Shown here one piece after another: positions 51,293-59,313 of a stretch of DNA of 64,000 nucleotides. The stretch is from contig NZ_JAPKNM010000001.1 in the NCBI RefSeq assembly GCF_026460985.1, forward strand, positions 1 to 64,000. The letters run 5' to 3'. The translations under genes and the position numbers were made by a program. Each line of letters starts with the position of its first letter. The first letter of the stretch is position 1. This DNA is from Sphingomonas sp. (lineage in GTDB: Bacteria > Pseudomonadota > Alphaproteobacteria > Sphingomonadales > Sphingomonadaceae). The notes below the pieces were generated by a model, which saw only the letters and a list, made by a program, of their open reading frames with translations, did not search any database and had not been told where the DNA came from.

Positions 51293-52996
51293 TCAGAAGA
51301 GCTGGCCGTTGATCGTCGCGAGATGATCGGCGACGGGTCCGAGCGCGAGGCCGGGGAGGAAGGTCAGGCCGCCGACGATGAGGATGATGCCGACGAGCAG
51401 CCCCACCCACAGCGCGCCGGTGGTCGGGAAGGAGCCGGCGGTCTCGGGCGTGTATTTCTTGCCGGCCAGCGATCCGGCGATGGCGAGCACCGGCACGATC
51501 ATGAAGAACCGCCCGATCCACATCGCGACGCCGAGCAGCCCGTTGTAGAAGGGCGTGCCCGCGCTCAGCCCGGCAAAGGCGGAGCCGTTGTTCCCGGTCG
51601 CCGAGCTATAGGCGTAGAGGATCTCGGAGAAGCCGTGCGGCCCCTTGTTGAGCGGCCCCGCCAGCCCCTGCGGCAACACCGCAGAAAGCGCAGTGAAGCC
51701 GAGGATGCAGAGCGGCAGCACCGCGATCGCCAGCACCGCCAGCTTGACCTCGCGGCTCTCGATCTTCTTGCCGACATATTCGGGCGTGCGGCCTACCATC
51801 AGCCCCGCGACGAAGACGCCGAGCAATGCGAACAGCAGGAAGCCGTATATGCCCGCGCCGACTCCGCCGACGACGATCTCGCCGAGCTGGATGTTGAACA
51901 GGGGGATCATGCCGCCGAGCGCGGTGAAGCTGTCGTGCATCGCGTTCACCGCGCCGCAGGAGGCCGCGGTGGTGACCACCGCGAACAGCGCGCTGGCGGC
52001 GATGCCGAAGCGGACCTCCTTGCCCTCCATGTTGCCGCCGGGCACGCCGAGCTGATGGAGCACGGGGTTGCCCGCCGCTTCCTGCCAATAGGTCACGCCG
52101 ACGCCCGCGAGGAACAGCACCAGCATCGCCGCGAGGATCGCCCAGCCCTGGCGCGGATTGCCCACCGCCTTGCCGAAGCACCAGGTGAGCCCGACGCCGA
52201 TCGCGAAGATCGAGAGCATCTGCACCAGATTGGTGAGTGCGGTCGGGTTCTCGAAGGGGTGCGCCGAATTGGCGTTGAAGAAGCCGCCGCCATTGGTGCC
52301 CAGCATCTTGATCGCTTCCTGCGAAGCGACGGGGCCGAGCACGATCGCCTGCTTCGCGCCCTCCAGCGTGGTCGCGTCCACGCTGCTGAGGAAGGTCTGC
52401 GGCACCCCGCTTGCGATCAGATAGACGGCATAGACAAGGCAGATCGGCAGCAGCAAATAGAGCGTGACGCGCGTGACGTCCGCCCAGAAATTGCCCAGCG
52501 CCGCCGTCTCGCGCCGCGCGAAGCCGCGGAACAACGCGAAGGCGATCGCGATGCCGGTCGCCGCGCTCAGGAAATTGTGGATCGTCAGGCCCAGCATCTG
52601 GCTGAGGTTCGAAAGCGCGACCTCGCCCGAATACCATTGCCAGTTGGTGTTGGTGGTGAAGCTGATCGCCGTGTTCATCGCGCCGTCGGCGCCGAGGCCG
52701 GCGAGCCCGCGCGGGTTCATCGGCAGCGCGCCCTGGAGGCGGAGCACGGCATAGGTGAACAACAGCAGCACGAGCTGGAACAGCAGCATGTGCACCGCGT
52801 AGCGGCGCCAGCCCATCTCCGCGGCGGGATCGATACCGGCCAGGCGGTAGAAGCCGCGCTCGACGGGGCCGAGCACCGTATGCAGCGGCGTGCGGCGGCC
52901 TTCGTAGAGCGCGAAGAGCCACAGGCCCATCGGCTTGGCGAGCGCGACGAGGAGGAAGGTGAAGACGAGGATCAGCGTCCAGCCCTGGATGGTCAT
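51293..52996 (-). CDS. kdpA: KdpA, potassium-translocating subunit
   Basis: 567-residue channel-like subunit, usual length, with about ten transmembrane helices. The selectivity-filter-like loops of this superfamily are seen, for example [30 protein letters not shown] and the C-terminal [13 protein letters not shown]. The start ATG is 10 bp after the tiny kdpF. It binds and passes K+ while KdpB provides energy. Confidence 0.97.
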
Positions 52997-53006
52997 GGCG
53001 CGGCTT

Positions 53007-53096
53007 TCAGAAGCGTTCGGGCCGCACGAGCACGGCCACGAGATAGAGGAGCAGGCCCAGTGCGGTGAGCCCGGCGAGTGCGAGATGGAGCGTCAC
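53007..53096 (-). CDS. kdpF: KdpF small subunit
   Basis: A 29-residue, single-helix membrane peptide, the size and place (directly before kdpA) of KdpF, which stabilises the KdpABC complex. The helix ([20 protein letters not shown]) is followed by the conserved short basic end RPERF. The start is GTG (complement of 53094-53096) with GAGGTG upstream. It is easy to miss because of its length. Confidence 0.88.
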
Positions 53097-53105
53097 GAGC
53101 GCACC

Positions 53106-53189
53106 TCACGCGTTGTCGCAGAGACGGACATAAGCGAGCGTCAGCAGGAAGAGTCCCGCCAGCACCGCCAGCCAGAGGAAGTCGTTCAC
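53106..53189 (-). CDS. Tiny membrane peptide upstream of kdpF
   Basis: 27 residues from a GTG with AGGAG at ideal spacing. One transmembrane helix (LWLAVLAGLFLLTLAYV) is followed by RLCDNA. It ends 9 bp before kdpF and has a hydrophobic body and a C-terminal (V)RLCD-type motif. I recall similar peptides at the head of kdp operons in other bacteria, so it may be an accessory subunit. This is from memory and not verified. Confidence 0.7.
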   Translation of the reverse strand: MNDFLWLAVLAGLFLLTLAYVRLCDNA

Positions 53190-53203
53190 GGTCGTTTCTC
53201 CTG

Positions 53204-53488
53204 CTAGAGCGTGAATTGGCCATGGCGGCCGGGCACCGGGATCAGCCGGAACAGCCCGGGGCCCTCGAAGAGGAAGGCGAGCCCCAGGGCGAGGCTCGCG
53301 ACGATGAGCACGGCCAGGGCGAACTCGAGGAGCGTGGCCGCATGCGCCGGCGGCTGGGCCACCGAGCGGCGCAGCCACCAGGATGCCGCCGCGCACATAC
53401 CGAGCAGGGCCGCGCCGAATGCGCGCAGCGCGATCTCGGCGGCCCACCAGCGGTCGCCCTTTCCCAGACGAAGCAGAATCGCGTGCAC
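53204..53488 (-). CDS. Small two-helix membrane protein at the head of the kdp operon
   Basis: About 94 residues from a GTG at 53488 (start uncertain; the frame stays open further upstream). Two transmembrane helices lie near residues 22-42 and 50-72, with FEGPGLFRLIPVPGRHGQFTL at the end. No motif is recognised. It precedes the 27-residue peptide by 14 bp, so it is probably the first gene of the kdp transcript. Divergent from kup. Confidence 0.55.
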   Translation of the reverse strand: MHAILLRLGKGDRWWAAEIALRAFGAALLGMCAAASWWLRRSVAQPPAHAATLLEFALAVLIVASLALGLAFLFEGPGLFRLIPVPGRHGQFTL

Positions 53489-53625
53489 CTCACTTATCCC
53501 TGCAGTGATCGTCGGACGCGATGTGGTGCGGATCGGGATTAAGCTTCCACGGGGAAGTTGGCCGATCGCATAAAGAAGCCGTAAAGTTTGTGGCGGCCGC
53601 CCATGCGCGCGCTTAGGTCCGCGCA

Positions 53626-55521
53626 ATGCAGGACGATGCGCCGCAATCCGAACAGCCTCATGGCCATAACGAACCCCTTTCCACGCTCGCCATCGGCGCG
53701 ATCGGCGTGGTGTTCGGGGATATCGGCACTTCGCCGCTATACGCCCTCAAGGAAAGCTTCGTCGGCCATCATCCGCTGGCGGTCGACTCCGCGCACATCT
53801 TCGGCGTGCTCTCGCTGATCTTCTGGACGATGATGCTGATCGTCACGGTCAAGTACGTCTTCATCATCCTGCGCGCCGACAACAAGGGCGAAGGCGGCAG
53901 CCTCGCGCTGCTCGCGTTGATCAGCCGCAAGCTCTCGATCGGGCGATGGAGCGCCGGCATCACCATGCTCGGGGTGATCGCCACCGCGCTCTTCTACGGC
54001 GATGCGATCATCACGCCCGCCATCTCGGTGCTGTCGGCGGTCGAGGGGCTGACGGTGGTCCAGAGCGGCCTGACCCCGCTCGTCCTGCCGATCGCGATCC
54101 TGATCCTGATCGCCCTGTTCGCGATCCAGTCGCACGGCACCGCGACGGTGGGGAAATTGTTCGGGCCGGTCATGCTGGTCTATTTCGCCGTGCTGGCGCT
54201 ACTCGGGATCATGGGCATCGCCCGCGCCCCCGAAGTGTTGTGGGCGCTCAACCCCGCTTATGCCTTCGCCTTCTTCACGATCGATCCGGTGCTGGCCTTC
54301 CTCGCCTTGGGCTCGGTGGTGCTGGCGGTGACCGGCGCCGAGGCGCTCTATGCCGATATGGGGCATTTCGGGCGCAAGGCGATCGCGATTTCCTGGCTTT
54401 ACATCGCCTTTCCCTGCCTGATGCTGAACTATCTGGGCCAGTCGGCGCTGCTGCTGACCGATCCCGGCGCGGCGGAGAATCCCTTCTTCCTGATGGCGCC
54501 GGACTGGGCGCGGCTGCCGCTGGTCATCCTGGCGACGATGGCGACGGTGATCGCCAGCCAGGCGGTGATCTCGGGCGCCTATTCGGTCTCGCAGCAGGCC
54601 GTCCAGCTCGGCTTCCTGCCGCGCCTGCGCATCCTCCACACCAGCGCGAAGGCTGCGGGGCAGATCTACGTCCCGATCGTCAACTGGGCCTTGCTGATCT
54701 TCGTCATCCTGCTCGTGCTCGGCTTCCGCAGCTCGAGCAACCTCGCCGCGGCCTACGGCATCGCGGTCACCGGCACGATGTTCATCACCGCCTGCATGCT
54801 CGGCGTCCTCGCCTTCGCGGTATGGAAATGGCCGCCCGTACTGGCGGCGCTGGTGACCGGCACCTTCCTGCTGATCGACGGTCTCTATTTCGCGTCGAAC
54901 GTCACCAAGGTCCCCGACGGCGGCTGGTTCCCGCTGCTCGTCGCGGCGGTCACCTTCACCGTGCTGACGACCTGGGCGACGGGACGCAGGCTGGTCCGCG
55001 AACGGCTCGACGAGAGCGCGATGCCGATCGAACTGTTCGTCCGCTCCGCCGGTGCCGCCGCGCAGCGCGTACCGGGCACGGCGGTGTTCCTCGCCTCGTC
55101 GGCGGAGGGCATTCCGCCGTCGCTCCTCCACAATCTGAAGCACAACCGCGTCCTTCACGAACGCGTCGTCCTGCTGACGATCGCTATCGAGCAGGTGCCC
55201 CATGTCCATCCTGGAGAGCGCACCAAGGTCGCCAAGCTCGGCGGGGGCTTCTATCGCATCCTTCTCCATTATGGCTTCATGGACGAGATCGACGTGCCGG
55301 CCGCGCTCGCCGAGATCTCCGACGCGGGCGCGCCGTTCAAGCTGATGGACACCAGCTATTTCCTCGCCCGCCAGACGCTGATCGCCTCCTCCAAGCCCGG
55401 CATGGCGATCTGGCGGGAGAAGCTCTTCGCGCTCATGGTCCGCAATGCGGAGAGCGCGATGGAGTTCTTCAAGCTGCCGACGAACCGCGTGGTGGAACTG
55501 GGCAGCCAGGTCGAGATATAG
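53626..55521 (+). CDS. kup: Low-affinity potassium transporter Kup
   Basis: 631 residues, full length. Twelve transmembrane helices in the first 440 residues and a C-terminal cytoplasmic domain. The N-terminal [18 protein letters not shown] is the Kup signature, and [12 protein letters not shown] follows. It mediates proton-coupled K+ uptake. It is transcribed divergently from the kdp genes across 137 bp, giving a cell both constitutive and inducible potassium uptake side by side. Confidence 0.97.
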
Positions 55522-55558
55522 GCCGGGCCTCGCCTTCGCGATCGTCATCCCTTGCGCA

Positions 55559-55577
55559 ATGTGACATTACAACATAT
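55559..55577. promoter_or_regulatory. Putative Zur box upstream of the zinc-uptake genes
   Basis: Imperfect dyad ATGT-N9-ACAT with A/T-rich centre (55559-55575, then AT). It lies 117 bp before the likely start of the DUF2946-like gene in otherwise G/C-rich sequence. The A/T content and length fit zinc-uptake-regulator operators in alphaproteobacteria, which I know only in outline. The assignment rests on context (Fur-family regulator and zinc receptor downstream). Confidence 0.5.
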
Positions 55578-55693
55578 CAGCTATGCCGCATCGCAGCGAT
55601 GACTCAGTGAACGGTGGTGTGTTGAGCGCAGATACGCAGCCAGGCGGTCGAAAGGGCCTCGCGGTACCGGCAGGCTCCGGCCGCCGTGCGGCC

Positions 55694-56065
55694 ATGCGAT
55701 CCCCGGCGCGCACCAAAGGACCCGGACCGGCCCTGCTCTGCGCGATGCTCCTGGCGCTCCTGTGGCAGGCCCTGGCCGCGCAGGTGCATCGCCACCTCGA
55801 TCTTCCCCTCGCCGCCGCGCAGGTCTCGGTCTCCGCCCATGGCGTCGGGGATTCGCAGCCCGGCGCGCCGCTCGATTCGGCCGCGGGCTGCTCCTTCTGC
55901 CGCGAGCTCGCGCATGCAGGCCCGCTGCTGCTGCCCGCCGCGATATCGATCGAGGTCCCGATCGAGGCCGCCTTCCGGATCACTCCGACGCGCCTGCACG
56001 CACTCGATCTGCTTGCGCGCGCGCCCCTCTGGCGCAGCCGGGCGCCGCCGCCGCTCCAGGCCTGA
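55694..56065 (+). CDS. DUF2946-like exported/membrane protein
   Basis: About 123 residues from ATG 55694. A hydrophobic segment near 13-31 is followed by a histidine pair (VHRHLD) and a C-x2-C pair (GCSFCRE), the arrangement of DUF2946 proteins found beside metal-uptake receptors. The start is uncertain: an in-frame ATG at 55583 would begin only 6 bp after the putative Zur box and lacks a ribosome-binding site. Followed after 87 bp by the TonB receptor gene. Confidence 0.65.
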   Translation: MRSPARTKGPGPALLCAMLLALLWQALAAQVHRHLDLPLAAAQVSVSAHGVGDSQPGAPLDSAAGCSFCRELAHAGPLLLPAAISIEVPIEAAFRITPTRLHALDLLARAPLWRSRAPPPLQA

Positions 56066-56152
56066 GGGCCGCGATCCCGCGAGCGCGTCGTCCGCGCCCG
56101 GAAAGATCGCGCCCCGAACCCCGAAACGACAAGGTTCCTGGAGTGATTTTCC

Positions 56153-58327
56153 ATGCGTAACGCATTGCTTCTCGGCGCGGCCTCGCTCGCGCTCGCTTTT
56201 CCCGCCGCCGCTTTCGCCGCGGGCCCCGACGATACCAACCCGGCCGCGCCCAACGCGCCCGCCACGCCCGCGCCGCAGGATCAGGCCGCACCCGTGAAGC
56301 AGGGCGACGAGATCGTCATCACCGGCCTGCTCCAGCAGAGCGAGAAGGACGTGCTCTCGGGCACCTCGATTGTCTCGGGCGAGGAATTGACCCGCGACCT
56401 GCGGCCGAGCATCGGCGAGACGCTCGCCAGGCAGCCCGGCGTATCGGCGACCTCGTTCGGGCCCAGCGCCTCGCGCCCGATCCTGCGCGGCTTCCAGGGC
56501 GAGCGCATTCGCGTGCTGACCGACGGGATCGGATCGATCGACGTGTCGAACACCTCGGTCGACCATGCCGTGATCATCGATCCCCTGCTCGCCGAGCGCG
56601 TCGAGATCGTGCGCGGTCCCTCGGCATTGCTCTACGGCTCGTCGGCGATCGGCGGCGTGGTCAACGTGATCGACAGCCGCATCCCGCGTTCGATCCCCGA
56701 GAACGGCTACCGGGTGAACGCGATCGGCAGCTACGGTTCGGCGGCGAACGAGCGGTCGATCGGCGCGGCCGGCGATGTCGGGCTCGGCAAGATCGTACTC
56801 CACGCCGACGGCTCCTACCTCAAGAGCGACGACCTCGACATCGGCGGCTATGTGCTGTCGCCCCGCGCGCGCGCCGCGGCGCTGGCGGCGGCCGCCGGGC
56901 CGACGACGCCCGACGATCCCGATTTCGCCGCGTCCGCCGCGCTGAAGGGCACGCTGCCCAACACCGCCGCGCGCACCTGGACCGCGGGCGTCGGTGCCTC
57001 GCTGATCACCGACACCGGCAGCCTCGGCATTTCGTACAGCCACTATGACAGCCTCTACGGCGTGCCGATCCGCTACGCGACCGAGTCCGGGCAGGAGCAG
57101 GAAGCCCCGCGGCTGAGCGTGGTCCAGAACCGCGTCGACCTGCGCGGCGAAGTCGATACCGGCGGCGGCTTCCTCGACAAGATCCGCGTCCGCGCGGGCT
57201 ATGCCAATTATCGCCACTACGAGCTCGAGGAGGACGGCGAAATCGGCACGGCCTTCTACAACAAGGGCATAGAAAGCCGGCTCGAGCTGATCCAGGCGCA
57301 GCGCGGCGGCTGGAGCGGGGCCTCGGGCGTCCAATATTTCAACCGCGACTTCAACGTGGTGGGGGACGAAGCCTTCCTGCCCAAGAACCGTACCAGCCAG
57401 CTCGGCCTGTTCACGCTCCAGCAGTTCGATCTGGGCCCGATCCGCGCCGAGGGCGGCCTGCGCTACGAGTCGAGCAACCTCGAGGCGACGCCCCTTTCCG
57501 GCGACACGCGCTTCTTCGCGGGCAAGCGACATTTCGATGCCTTCTCCGGATCCGCCGGCCTTTCCTACGCGCTGTCCGACGGCGTGCGGATCGGCTTCAA
57601 CGTCTCGCGTACCGAGCGCGCGCCTTCGGCCGAGGAGCTGTTCGCGCGCGGCGGCCATGCCGGAACCCAGTCCTGGGAGCTCGGCAATCCGGACTTCGCG
57701 CTCGAAAAGTCCTGGGGCATCGAGGGTACGCTGCACGTCCACCAGGACCGCTTCAGCCTCGACGCCTCGGCTTATTACAACTGGTTCTCCAACTACATCT
57801 CGGAGAACCAGGTCGATCCGTCGGTCTGCGCGACGGCCGCCGCGCCGAGCGGGCGCGAAGTCGATCTGCCCTGCTTCCAGTTCCAGCAGGCCGATGCGCG
57901 CTATTACGGCTTCGAGGCCGACGCCTCGTTCCGCCTGGCCCAGCTCGGCGCCTATGCGATCAATGTCGACGCATTGGGCGACTATGTGCGCGCCACCATC
58001 GTCGACCAGAGCCCCGCGCCGCGCATCCCGCCGGCGCGCGTGCTGGGCGGGATCGAGGCCCAGTCCGACCGGCTGACCGCGCGCGCCGAGGTCGAGCACG
58101 TCTTCGAGCAGGACCGCATCGCCCCGTTCGAGACGCCGACCGACGCCTATACGCTGGTGAACGCCTCGATCGGCTTCAAGCCGATTGCGGGCAACGACAG
58201 GATCTCGCTGCTGCTGAGCGCCAACAACATCTTCGATGTCGACGCGCGGCGCCATTCGAGCTTCCTGAAGGACTTCGCGCCGCTCGCGGGCCGCGACCTG
58301 CGCGCGACGGTGCGCGTCGGCTTCTAG
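56153..58327 (+). CDS. TonB-dependent receptor, probable zinc uptake (ZnuD-like)
   Basis: 724-residue outer-membrane receptor. Signal peptide about 1-22 (AFAA) is followed by a TonB-box-like DEIVITG and a plug with RQPGVSATSFGPSASRPILRGFQGERIRVL. SRTERAPSAEELFARGGHAGTQSWELGNP is typical of the ZnuD/CopC-like group. The barrel ends in Phe. Several His-containing outer loops are consistent with metal binding (HYELEED). Neighbours (DUF2946-like, MerC-domain and Fur-family genes) support zinc, although copper is not excluded. Confidence 0.88.
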   Translation: MRNALLLGAASLALAFPAAAFAAGPDDTNPAAPNAPATPAPQDQAAPVKQGDEIVITGLLQQSEKDVLSGTSIVSGEELTRDLRPSIGETLARQPGVSATSFGPSASRPILRGFQGERIRVLTDGIGSIDVSNTSVDHAVIIDPLLAERVEIVRGPSALLYGSSAIGGVVNVIDSRIPRSIPENGYRVNAIGSYGSAANERSIGAAGDVGLGKIVLHADGSYLKSDDLDIGGYVLSPRARAAALAAAAGPTTPDDPDFAASAALKGTLPNTAARTWTAGVGASLITDTGSLGISYSHYDSLYGVPIRYATESGQEQEAPRLSVVQNRVDLRGEVDTGGGFLDKIRVRAGYANYRHYELEEDGEIGTAFYNKGIESRLELIQAQRGGWSGASGVQYFNRDFNVVGDEAFLPKNRTSQLGLFTLQQFDLGPIRAEGGLRYESSNLEATPLSGDTRFFAGKRHFDAFSGSAGLSYALSDGVRIGFNVSRTERAPSAEELFARGGHAGTQSWELGNPDFALEKSWGIEGTLHVHQDRFSLDASAYYNWFSNYISENQVDPSVCATAAAPSGREVDLPCFQFQQADARYYGFEADASFRLAQLGAYAINVDALGDYVRATIVDQSPAPRIPPARVLGGIEAQSDRLTARAEVEHVFEQDRIAPFETPTDAYTLVNASIGFKPIAGNDRISLLLSANNIFDVDARRHSSFLKDFAPLAGRDLRATVRVGF

Positions 58328-58364
58328 CCCCCGGCAGCAGGGAAAGGCGGCGTCGACCCGCGTT

Positions 58365-58382
58365 CGCGTTCTCCGGAACGCG
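58365..58382 (+). other. Small stem-loop between the receptor and merC genes
   Basis: A perfect 7-bp stem (CGCGTTC-TCCG-GAACGCG) lies 37 bp after the receptor stop. There is no T-run. It may slow or attenuate read-through into the downstream MerC-domain and regulator genes. Confidence 0.35.
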
Positions 58383-58436
58383 GCGCGGCCGACGTCGCCG
58401 GTCCCCCGAACCGCACCACGATAATTGGAGAACGGC

Positions 58437-58841
58437 ATGCGCTGCGAACAGCAGGCGGCAGGCGCTCCCGTCACCGACTGGCTCGATCGCGCCGCGGTCG
58501 GCGCCTCGGTCCTGTGCCTGATTCATTGCGCCGGATTGCCGCTGCTGCTGGCGGTATTGCCTTCGCTGTCGCGCCTGATCGCGATTCCGGAGGACTTCCA
58601 TCTGTGGATGCTGGCCTTCGCGATCCCGACCTCCGCGGCAGCGCTCGCGGCGGGGCGGCGCAGCCATGGGGAGAACGAGCCCCTCGCCCTCGGCGGCCTC
58701 GGACTGGCGCTGATGGCCGCGGCGGCGCTGTGCTTCACGGGCGCCGCCGAGACCGCGACGACCATCGTCGGAAGCCTTTGCCTCGCGAGCGCTCACATCC
58801 GCAACTGGCGACGGCGGCGTCGCCCGCACCGCCATGGCTAG
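58437..58841 (+). CDS. MerC-domain membrane protein
   Basis: 134 residues with four hydrophobic helices. The first contains VLCLIHCAGLPLLLAVLP, the Cys/His pair placed as in MerC-domain proteins, and a basic His-rich tail ends it. In sphingomonads such proteins accompany Zur regulons. Mercury transport is not implied, as merA and merR are absent. ATG 58437 has GGAG 6 bases upstream and is preferred over a TTG at 58425. It overlaps the regulator start by 8 bp. Confidence 0.8.
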   Translation: MRCEQQAAGAPVTDWLDRAAVGASVLCLIHCAGLPLLLAVLPSLSRLIAIPEDFHLWMLAFAIPTSAAALAAGRRSHGENEPLALGGLGLALMAAAALCFTGAAETATTIVGSLCLASAHIRNWRRRRRPHRHG

Positions 58842-59229
58842 CCCGCGCCGGCCGCCGGGCGAGCTGGACCGCCGGATCCTCGCCCTGATCGAGCGCGAGG
58901 GGCGCCCCCTGTCCGGGCACATGTTGGCCGAGATGCTGCGCGCGGAAGGGAGGCACGTTGCCGTCAGCCTGGTATTCCGCTCGCTCCGCAAGCTCTGCGA
59001 CCAGGGCGCCCTGCACAAGCTGCTTTCGGCGCGCGGCTATGTCCGGGCGCCTTCCGATCACGGCGTCTATCTCTGCTGCACGGGCTGCGGCGCTGTCGGA
59101 GTGGTCGTCGACGAAAGGCCCTTCGGCGCGATCGGTCGCGGCGCCGGGGAAAAGAGCTTCCGCGTGCGGCGAGCGTTCGTCGAGGTCGCGGGGCTGTGCG
59201 CGCCCTGCTCGAGACGGGAACACCGATGA
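58834..59229 (+). CDS. zur: Fur/Zur-family transcriptional repressor
   Basis: 131 residues. The N-terminal winged helix (LDRRILALIEREGRPLSGHMLAEML, HVAVSLVFRSLRKLCDQG) and a C-terminal dimerisation domain are present. Two C-x2-C pairs (CTGCG near 83 and CAPC near 125) form the structural zinc site. The short length and lack of the usual Fur HHDH string, plus the zinc-receptor context, point to Zur. The name is inferred. It probably represses its own operon through the dyad near 55560. Confidence 0.8.
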   Translation: MASPRRPPGELDRRILALIEREGRPLSGHMLAEMLRAEGRHVAVSLVFRSLRKLCDQGALHKLLSARGYVRAPSDHGVYLCCTGCGAVGVVVDERPFGAIGRGAGEKSFRVRRAFVEVAGLCAPCSRREHR

Positions 59230-59276
59230 GCGCAGGCGTTCGATACGGCCGAACCCTGCCTTCACGCAAAAAACAA

Positions 59277-59306
59277 ACAAGGGCGGCCCTTCGGGACCGC
59301 CCTTGT
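59277..59306. terminator. Two-way terminator between zur and the S9 peptidase gene
   Basis: Inverted repeat ACAAGGGCGG-N-CC, TTCG loop, GG-N-CCGCCCTTGT (one mismatch). It is followed by T-rich sequence on both strands (TTCTTTGTTC on plus, TTGTTTTTTGCG on minus). It fits convergent termination of the Zur unit (stop 59229) and the peptidase gene (stop 59314). Confidence 0.85.
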
Positions 59307-59313
59307 TCTTTGT

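Follow-up and report, generated by a model that had tools for sequence, protein, structure and literature searches.

A predicted Zur-controlled operon of Sphingomonas with a MerC-family protein as candidate inner-membrane zinc importer

How does zinc cross the inner membrane of a bacterium in whose genome the usual ABC pump is not found? The question is raised by a small unit in the window, by which we mean the whole 64,000-nucleotide stretch analysed here (positions 1–64,000 of contig NZ_JAPKNM010000001.1, Sphingomonas sp. assembly GCF_026460985.1). Behind a Zur box lie four co-oriented genes, encoding a DUF2946-like protein, a ZnuD-like TonB-dependent receptor, a MerC-family membrane protein and a Fur/Zur-like protein (Table 1). 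An earlier reading of the DNA from its letters (the sequence-only reading) had named these parts, all of which we find in their places on the plus strand, and had proposed MerC as the inner-membrane step for zinc. This hypothesis is now backed by Zur boxes before the merC genes of the host's family and by the inverse occurrence of merC and ABC-3 permeases. We consider it probable, if narrowly so, that the unit is an accessory Zur-controlled operon for zinc scarcity in which MerC serves as inner-membrane importer instead of ZnuABC; that MerC transports, that it carries zinc and that it does so inwards is what we infer.

Zur-type sites before merC

The motif used to score the box was derived from DNA upstream of merC genes in the host's family (141 loci, including a second merC of the same genome on contig C19, without the window). 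A symmetric motif was trained on 135 of these loci, six having been dropped for want of a site matching 8 of 13 positions in the expected stretch; the window, two Sphingomonas kyeonggiensis loci (L003, L004) and nine loci of other Alphaproteobacteria (L213–L221) were kept out of training. The box of the window is the top site in the 64 kb at 25.0 bits, and the next unrelated site reaches 5.8. With the maxima of 300 first-order Markov windows averaging 9.3 and peaking at 23.0 bits, and 100 symmetric column-permuted motifs yielding at most 20.2 bits anywhere in the window, the dyad that the sequence-only reading had likened to a Zur box stands above chance. The untrained S. kyeonggiensis loci have a 28.1-bit box before their DUF2946 gene. 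When the 141 family loci were joined with the window, these two loci and the nine outside the family (153 in all), the best match to the consensus TGTTATANNATAACA reached at least 9 of 13 positions in 135, versus 7.8% of 3,060 random stretches from the same loci. The trained motif scored at least 19 bits upstream of 127 of the 141 family merC genes, mostly training loci, against a mean of 0.5 for permuted motifs, and it has the GTTA-N5-TAAC form given for Zur sites in passages of Mazzon et al. (PMC4176598). Control of the unit by Zur through the predicted box is well supported by these sequence statistics, and Zur itself would bind there.

Similar sites are found far from the family. Among 24 merC loci outside the class (L246–L271 minus the same-genus L253 and L261; these are best-scoring matches and not a random draw), 20 have a site of at least 19 bits within about 1.5 kb, as compared with a mean of 1.3 and a maximum of 8 for permuted motifs, and at 15 the site lies just before merC. 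A Zur-like gene adjoins merC in L247, L248, L252 and L260 and a receptor like that of the window occurs at L264, L266 and L269–L271; neither is present at the merC loci L262 and L267.

Inverse occurrence of merC and ABC-3 permeases

Is merC found where the usual permease is missing? Of the 119 genomes in the family sample, 117 encode MerC; the remaining two are drafts of 67% and 96% completeness. An ABC-3 permease at E ≤ 1e-20 occurs in two, G055 and G010. Both G055 and G010 have merC as well, and around their permease pairs no Zur-type site occurs in 9 kb (best scores 0.5 and 1.9 bits). Weaker PF00950 matches in 55 family genomes were rejected as zinc permeases by their scores only (19–33 bits versus 258–270 in G055 and G010). 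ZIP proteins exceed the cut-off in 12 of the 119 genomes and reach E ≤ 0.001 in 27. A zur gene lies within 1.2 kb of merC at 50 of the 141 family loci, a receptor like that of the window within 0.7 kb at five.

The class sample (289 genomes, four of them family members) leaves 285 outside the family, with ABC-3 in 212 and MerC over the cut-off in 14. Taking as strong a MerC match of at least 56 bits, a line set after the scores were known, all eight genomes with a strong match are without ABC-3, versus 65 of the 277 others (Fisher 1.4e-5). In the phylum sample (398 genomes, 19 from the family, hence 379 others), ABC-3 is missing from 36 of 45 genomes with strong MerC versus 48 of 334 (Fisher 5e-19). 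Counted by taxonomic families with strong merC (20), twelve are without ABC-3 in every merC-bearing genome sampled, seven have it and one is mixed. The replacement of ABC-3 by merC is a correlation. A scan of contigs with the window MerC as query returned two loci only, and a search of plasmids four records, all annotated as MerC domain-containing.

Three loci of one family (L213, L215 and L220; genomes G385, G166) belong to genomes of 1.4 Mb with merC and no strong ABC-3. One of these merC genes adjoins a ZnuD-like receptor.

Zinc genes elsewhere in the genome

The sequence-only reading had noted the absence of ZnuA and of an ABC transporter from the unit. That observation was borne out, and it extends to the entire assembly (123 contigs with a total of 4.38 Mb and a completeness rating of 100%), in which profile searches gave no match to PF00950 (ABC-3), PF01297 (ZnuA) or PF02535 (ZIP). 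In 14 control genomes, PF00950 was matched in 13 and PF01297 in 11; Caulobacter vibrioides is the one control genome not named with ABC-3, like the genome studied here.

The unit does not stand alone, and its description as self-contained had to be given up. Contig C19 carries the second merC, directly followed by a full-length zur whose product passes PF01475 (45.3 bits) and misses NF008646 (63.5 versus 167 bits). The Zur-type sites of the genome number at least those given here, 100 of 132 matches being listed, and the regulon is to that extent incomplete. Among sites that took no part in training, one of 24.2 bits precedes a TonB gene (C1:292844; PF03544, 50.5 bits), one of 23.0 bits an ExbD gene (C3:11332; PF02472, 62.8 bits) and one of 20.8 bits a second ZnuD-like receptor (C26:26344; NF038289, 354 bits). 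That TonB and ExbD genes lie directly behind strong predicted sites suggests a zinc-controlled Ton system. Predicted sites thus stand before outer-membrane receptors and before genes of the Ton energy supply; among the listed sites that were followed, MerC is the sole candidate for an inner-membrane permease.

Conserved residues of MerC

The MerC of the window clears the PF03203 cut-off of 27.6 bits by a wide distance (102.6 bits). A C-x-x-H-C motif occurs in 177 of 179 MerC sequences, a count that leans towards the motif because the sequences were cut around its H-C pair. In the numbering of the window protein, the aligned residues are C27 in 178 of the 179, H30 in 178, C31 in 179, H55 in 166, E105 in 166, H120 in 178 and N123 in 169. 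The MerC of the R100 mer operon (L273:1273–1692), which matches the same Pfam model with 90.8 bits, aligns at C31 and H77 and is without C27, H30, H55, E105, H120 and N123. Since the residue sets differ, two kinds of protein appear to share one Pfam name, as judged from one mer-operon sequence. Up to E 10, no sequence relative of MerC was found in the PDB.

It is conceivable, though we would lean slightly against it, that the C-x-x-H-C type of MerC comprises widespread Zur-controlled zinc importers of Pseudomonadota that replace ZnuABC, and that mercury carriage by mer operons is a side branch.

Which regulator acts on the unit?

The last gene of the unit had been read as a Fur/Zur-type repressor. 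A weak likeness to Fur/Zur proteins holds: the nearest solved structure is E. coli Zur (4mtd, E 4e-7), and the structural CxxC...CxxC pairs are kept as CTGC and CAPC. The repressor role does not, most zinc-sensing residues being gone. The HPxCxHDC block present in seven full-length Zurs is missing from the window protein and its relatives (L003, L004, L022, L024). The sensing ligands of E. coli Zur are H77, C88, H96 and E111; in the alignment to 4mtd the four structural cysteines remain, and of these ligands only H77 is kept. Because the sensing residues are mostly lost and the cut-offs of both PF01475 (19.9 versus 23.1 bits) and NF008646 (34.4 versus 167) are missed, we would not simply name the protein the Zur repressor.

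A related unit in G602, of the same genus (L289, 5798–9079), is instructive here. Its box scores 23.5 bits, and both merC and the DUF2946 gene are retained; no Zur-like gene is found in the 12 kb covered. With no regulator gene found at that unit and the sensing block lost from the window protein, we take the full-length Zur of C19 as the likelier regulator of the window unit. Between its DUF2946 gene and merC, G602 has another TonB receptor (PF00593, 101.5 bits) with no ZnuD match, for which the best NCBIfam model, a siderophore receptor, scores 57.9 bits and stays below its cut-off. The receptor thus seems to have been exchanged between genomes and, as it is of another kind in G602, the cargo may differ from unit to unit.

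Together, this would give the following picture. When zinc is plentiful, the C19 Zur would bind the box and repress the unit; when zinc is scarce, the operon would be derepressed. Passage of zinc, free or in a complex, through the outer membrane may then fall to the ZnuD-like receptor, with energy from TonB and ExbD, whose genes likewise follow Zur-type sites. In the periplasm, zinc could perhaps be held by the DUF2946-like protein, a role that we propose as tentatively as any for the Fur-like protein. Finally, MerC would pass Zn(II) through the inner membrane along its Cys/His core, that is, the Cys-x-x-His-Cys motif together with the His/Glu positions.

Alternative explanations

How well does zinc import by MerC stand up to other explanations? 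Several observations weigh against it. The six class-sample genomes with weaker MerC matches all have ABC-3, so that of all 14 genomes with MerC eight are without the permease (p 0.01), and ABC-3 accompanies strong merC in nine of the 45 phylum-sample genomes. The p-values are overstated because the 56-bit line was drawn post hoc, the class and phylum samples overlap and genomes are phylogenetically structured. The random stretches that served as control for the consensus are mostly coding and hence poorer in A+T than promoters. At the nine loci of other Alphaproteobacteria, sites occur at chance level (4 of 9; permuted mean 2.1, maximum 5), with a Zur-like gene near merC in L214 and L218; the permuted-motif tests strengthen the site evidence for the family and for loci beyond the class, weaken it for the other Alphaproteobacteria and leave our judgement unmoved. 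In the genome itself, the site upstream of the C19 merC scores a mere 19.2 bits and belongs to a training locus, and genes with no known zinc role also have Zur-type sites, such as those of a VWA protein (25.2 bits) and an RTX protein (21.6 bits). A column-permuted motif yields five sites of at least 19 bits per 1.2 Mb; single sites near 20 bits are therefore insecure and some may be chance. An AlphaFold2 model of MerC from three sequences has four helices at a pLDDT of 51.8, too low to use. Lastly, the search of this genome for importers covered the ABC-3, ZnuA and ZIP families, so that zinc may have an unregulated route through NRAMP, CorA/ZntB, Pit or another importer.

This last point would suit an operon that is indeed Zur-controlled but in which MerC is an accessory protein for inner-membrane metal handling, sensing or chaperoning, while a general transporter, expressed constitutively, lets zinc in. 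Several importer families did lie outside the search, transport by MerC is itself deduced, and the nine genomes holding both merC and ABC-3 would be unsurprising. The tendency of the two genes to exclude each other, however, fits a replacement and not a helper, and no other inner-membrane permease candidate emerged behind the listed sites that were followed; we hold the accessory role to be rather unlikely, if a serious contender. Alternatively, MerC might export or detoxify a metal, with Zur activating or tuning it, as happens with czrCBA and zntA in Caulobacter, where Zur activates efflux genes (in passages of PMC4176598). There, though, the same passages place the efflux site upstream of the -35 element, whereas the box of the unit, like that of most merC genes in the family, is near the start codon, as in repressed uptake genes, and the unit also contains a ZnuD-like receptor. 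Export is accordingly improbable in our view. Very improbable is a mercury or copper unit, with uptake of Hg(II) by MerC, or with copper as the metal that the DUF2946-like protein and the receptor serve. The Pfam name MerC invites such a reading, and the annotation is in part by family alone; but the box is of the Zur type, the MerC residues are unlike those of R100, and the flanks hold potassium transporters and an S9 peptidase. A mer-operon mercury unit in particular was considered and rejected, the flanking genes not being mer genes and MerC differing from that of R100 in its residues.

Several systems already described resemble the unit in part. The Zur regulon of Caulobacter crescentus, as described in passages of Mazzon 2014 (PMC4176598), resembles the unit in its Zur-repressed TonB receptors, its GTTA-N5-TAAC palindrome and the DUF2946 genes among those affected by Zur; it differs in having the ABC-2 type znuGHI and the six-helix ZrpW, and MerC is absent from the article's table. 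The Neisseria-type system likewise has a ZnuD-like receptor under Zur, but its inner-membrane step is ZnuABC according to a table in PMC6103462, in contrast to the genome studied here, which has no ZnuA or ABC-3 match. The R100/Tn21 MerC shares Pfam family, similar length and the aligned C31 and H77 with the window protein, yet its gene sits among merR, merT, merP and merA. Mer-operon MerC is an inner-membrane mercuric ion uptake protein by the title of a 1997 paper cited in PMC5253648, and plants expressing MerC accumulate cadmium by the title of one cited in PMC6416403; both are precedents for a link of MerC with group-12 metals. Closer to our case, Stenotrophomonas maltophilia has a merC homologue that is chromosomal and outside a mer operon, like that of the unit, and that adjoins a P47K (COG0523) gene and lies near a Co-Zn-Cd gene, as told in part of the text of PMC5253648; it was studied there for selection in the lung, with neither zinc nor Zur mentioned in the main text. 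COG0523 proteins are Zur-regulated in some cases, as a passage in the discussion of PMC4176598 has it. In the open-licence PMC literature we found no paper linking MerC with Zur.

What would import by MerC mean? Zur-controlled zinc acquisition is of a known kind; MerC is the candidate, on our hypothesis, for a new class of importer. Such a role would answer how zinc passes the inner membrane in a family with almost no ZnuABC-type permease and few ZIP proteins, and would explain how Sphingomonas-type bacteria live without the usual ABC pump. Many genes annotated as mercury resistance would then be zinc-homeostasis genes, and a zinc reading would suggest itself for the lung-selected chromosomal merC homologue of Stenotrophomonas (part of the text of PMC5253648). 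With a candidate of about 130 residues, a conserved Cys/His core and a clear Zur box, the question is testable.

Features of the unit and minor observations

Table 1. Predicted features of the unit, in window coordinates
Feature	Position	Strand	Evidence
Predicted operator: Zur box with an imperfect dyad	55557..55577		25.0 bits, merC-upstream motif
DUF2946-like secreted or membrane-anchored protein, HRH and CSFC	55583..56065	+	PF11162 20.8 bits
ZnuD-like TonB-dependent receptor	56153..58327	+	PF00593 143 bits, PF07715 72 bits, NF038289 393 bits
MerC-family membrane protein with C-x-x-H-C, candidate zinc importer	58437..58841	+	PF03203 102.6 bits
Short Fur/Zur-like protein	58834..59229	+	PF01475 19.9 bits; structural CxxC pairs present, most sensing ligands lost
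Terminator-like hairpin, 15-pair stem	59275..59308	-	separates the unit from the convergent gene of an S9 peptidase

The same order of four genes is found in the two S. kyeonggiensis strains. The first gene product stays below its Pfam cut-off (20.8 versus 23.7 bits); relatives occupy the equivalent place in L003, L004 and L289. Its start at 55583 lies five bases past the Zur box; an in-frame ATG at 55694, with a signal-like beginning, is the likelier true start. For the receptor, the best NCBIfam model is ZnuD (NF038289), and the nearest solved structure by sequence is ZnuD as well (4rdr, E 5e-56); because the model's cut-off of 950 bits is missed, we call it ZnuD-like only. The reading frames of MerC and of the Fur/Zur-like protein share eight bases. 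The hairpin is a weak feature, two such sites occurring where 1.5 are expected from shuffles.

The neighbours of the unit are genes for KdpA, a potassium transporter (K_trans) and the S9 peptidase; just upstream (51293–55521), KdpA on the minus strand and K_trans on the plus strand lie head to head.

The genome has further Zur-type sites of 20–25 bits. At C71:74094 (L279), the site before the VWA gene is a near-perfect palindrome, and the protein is YfbK-like; the gene of the RTX-repeat protein adjoins its site, and a further site of 20.2 bits lies at a place with no clear gene assignment. At C96:21132 (L091), a 20.7-bit site lies about 60 bases before the gene of a small secreted protein with no Pfam match, and a search of parts of contigs C87–C96 found this site alone. 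A Zur regulon member of E. coli is pliG, according to the table in PMC6103462; by eye, the small secreted protein on C96 is lysozyme inhibitor-like.

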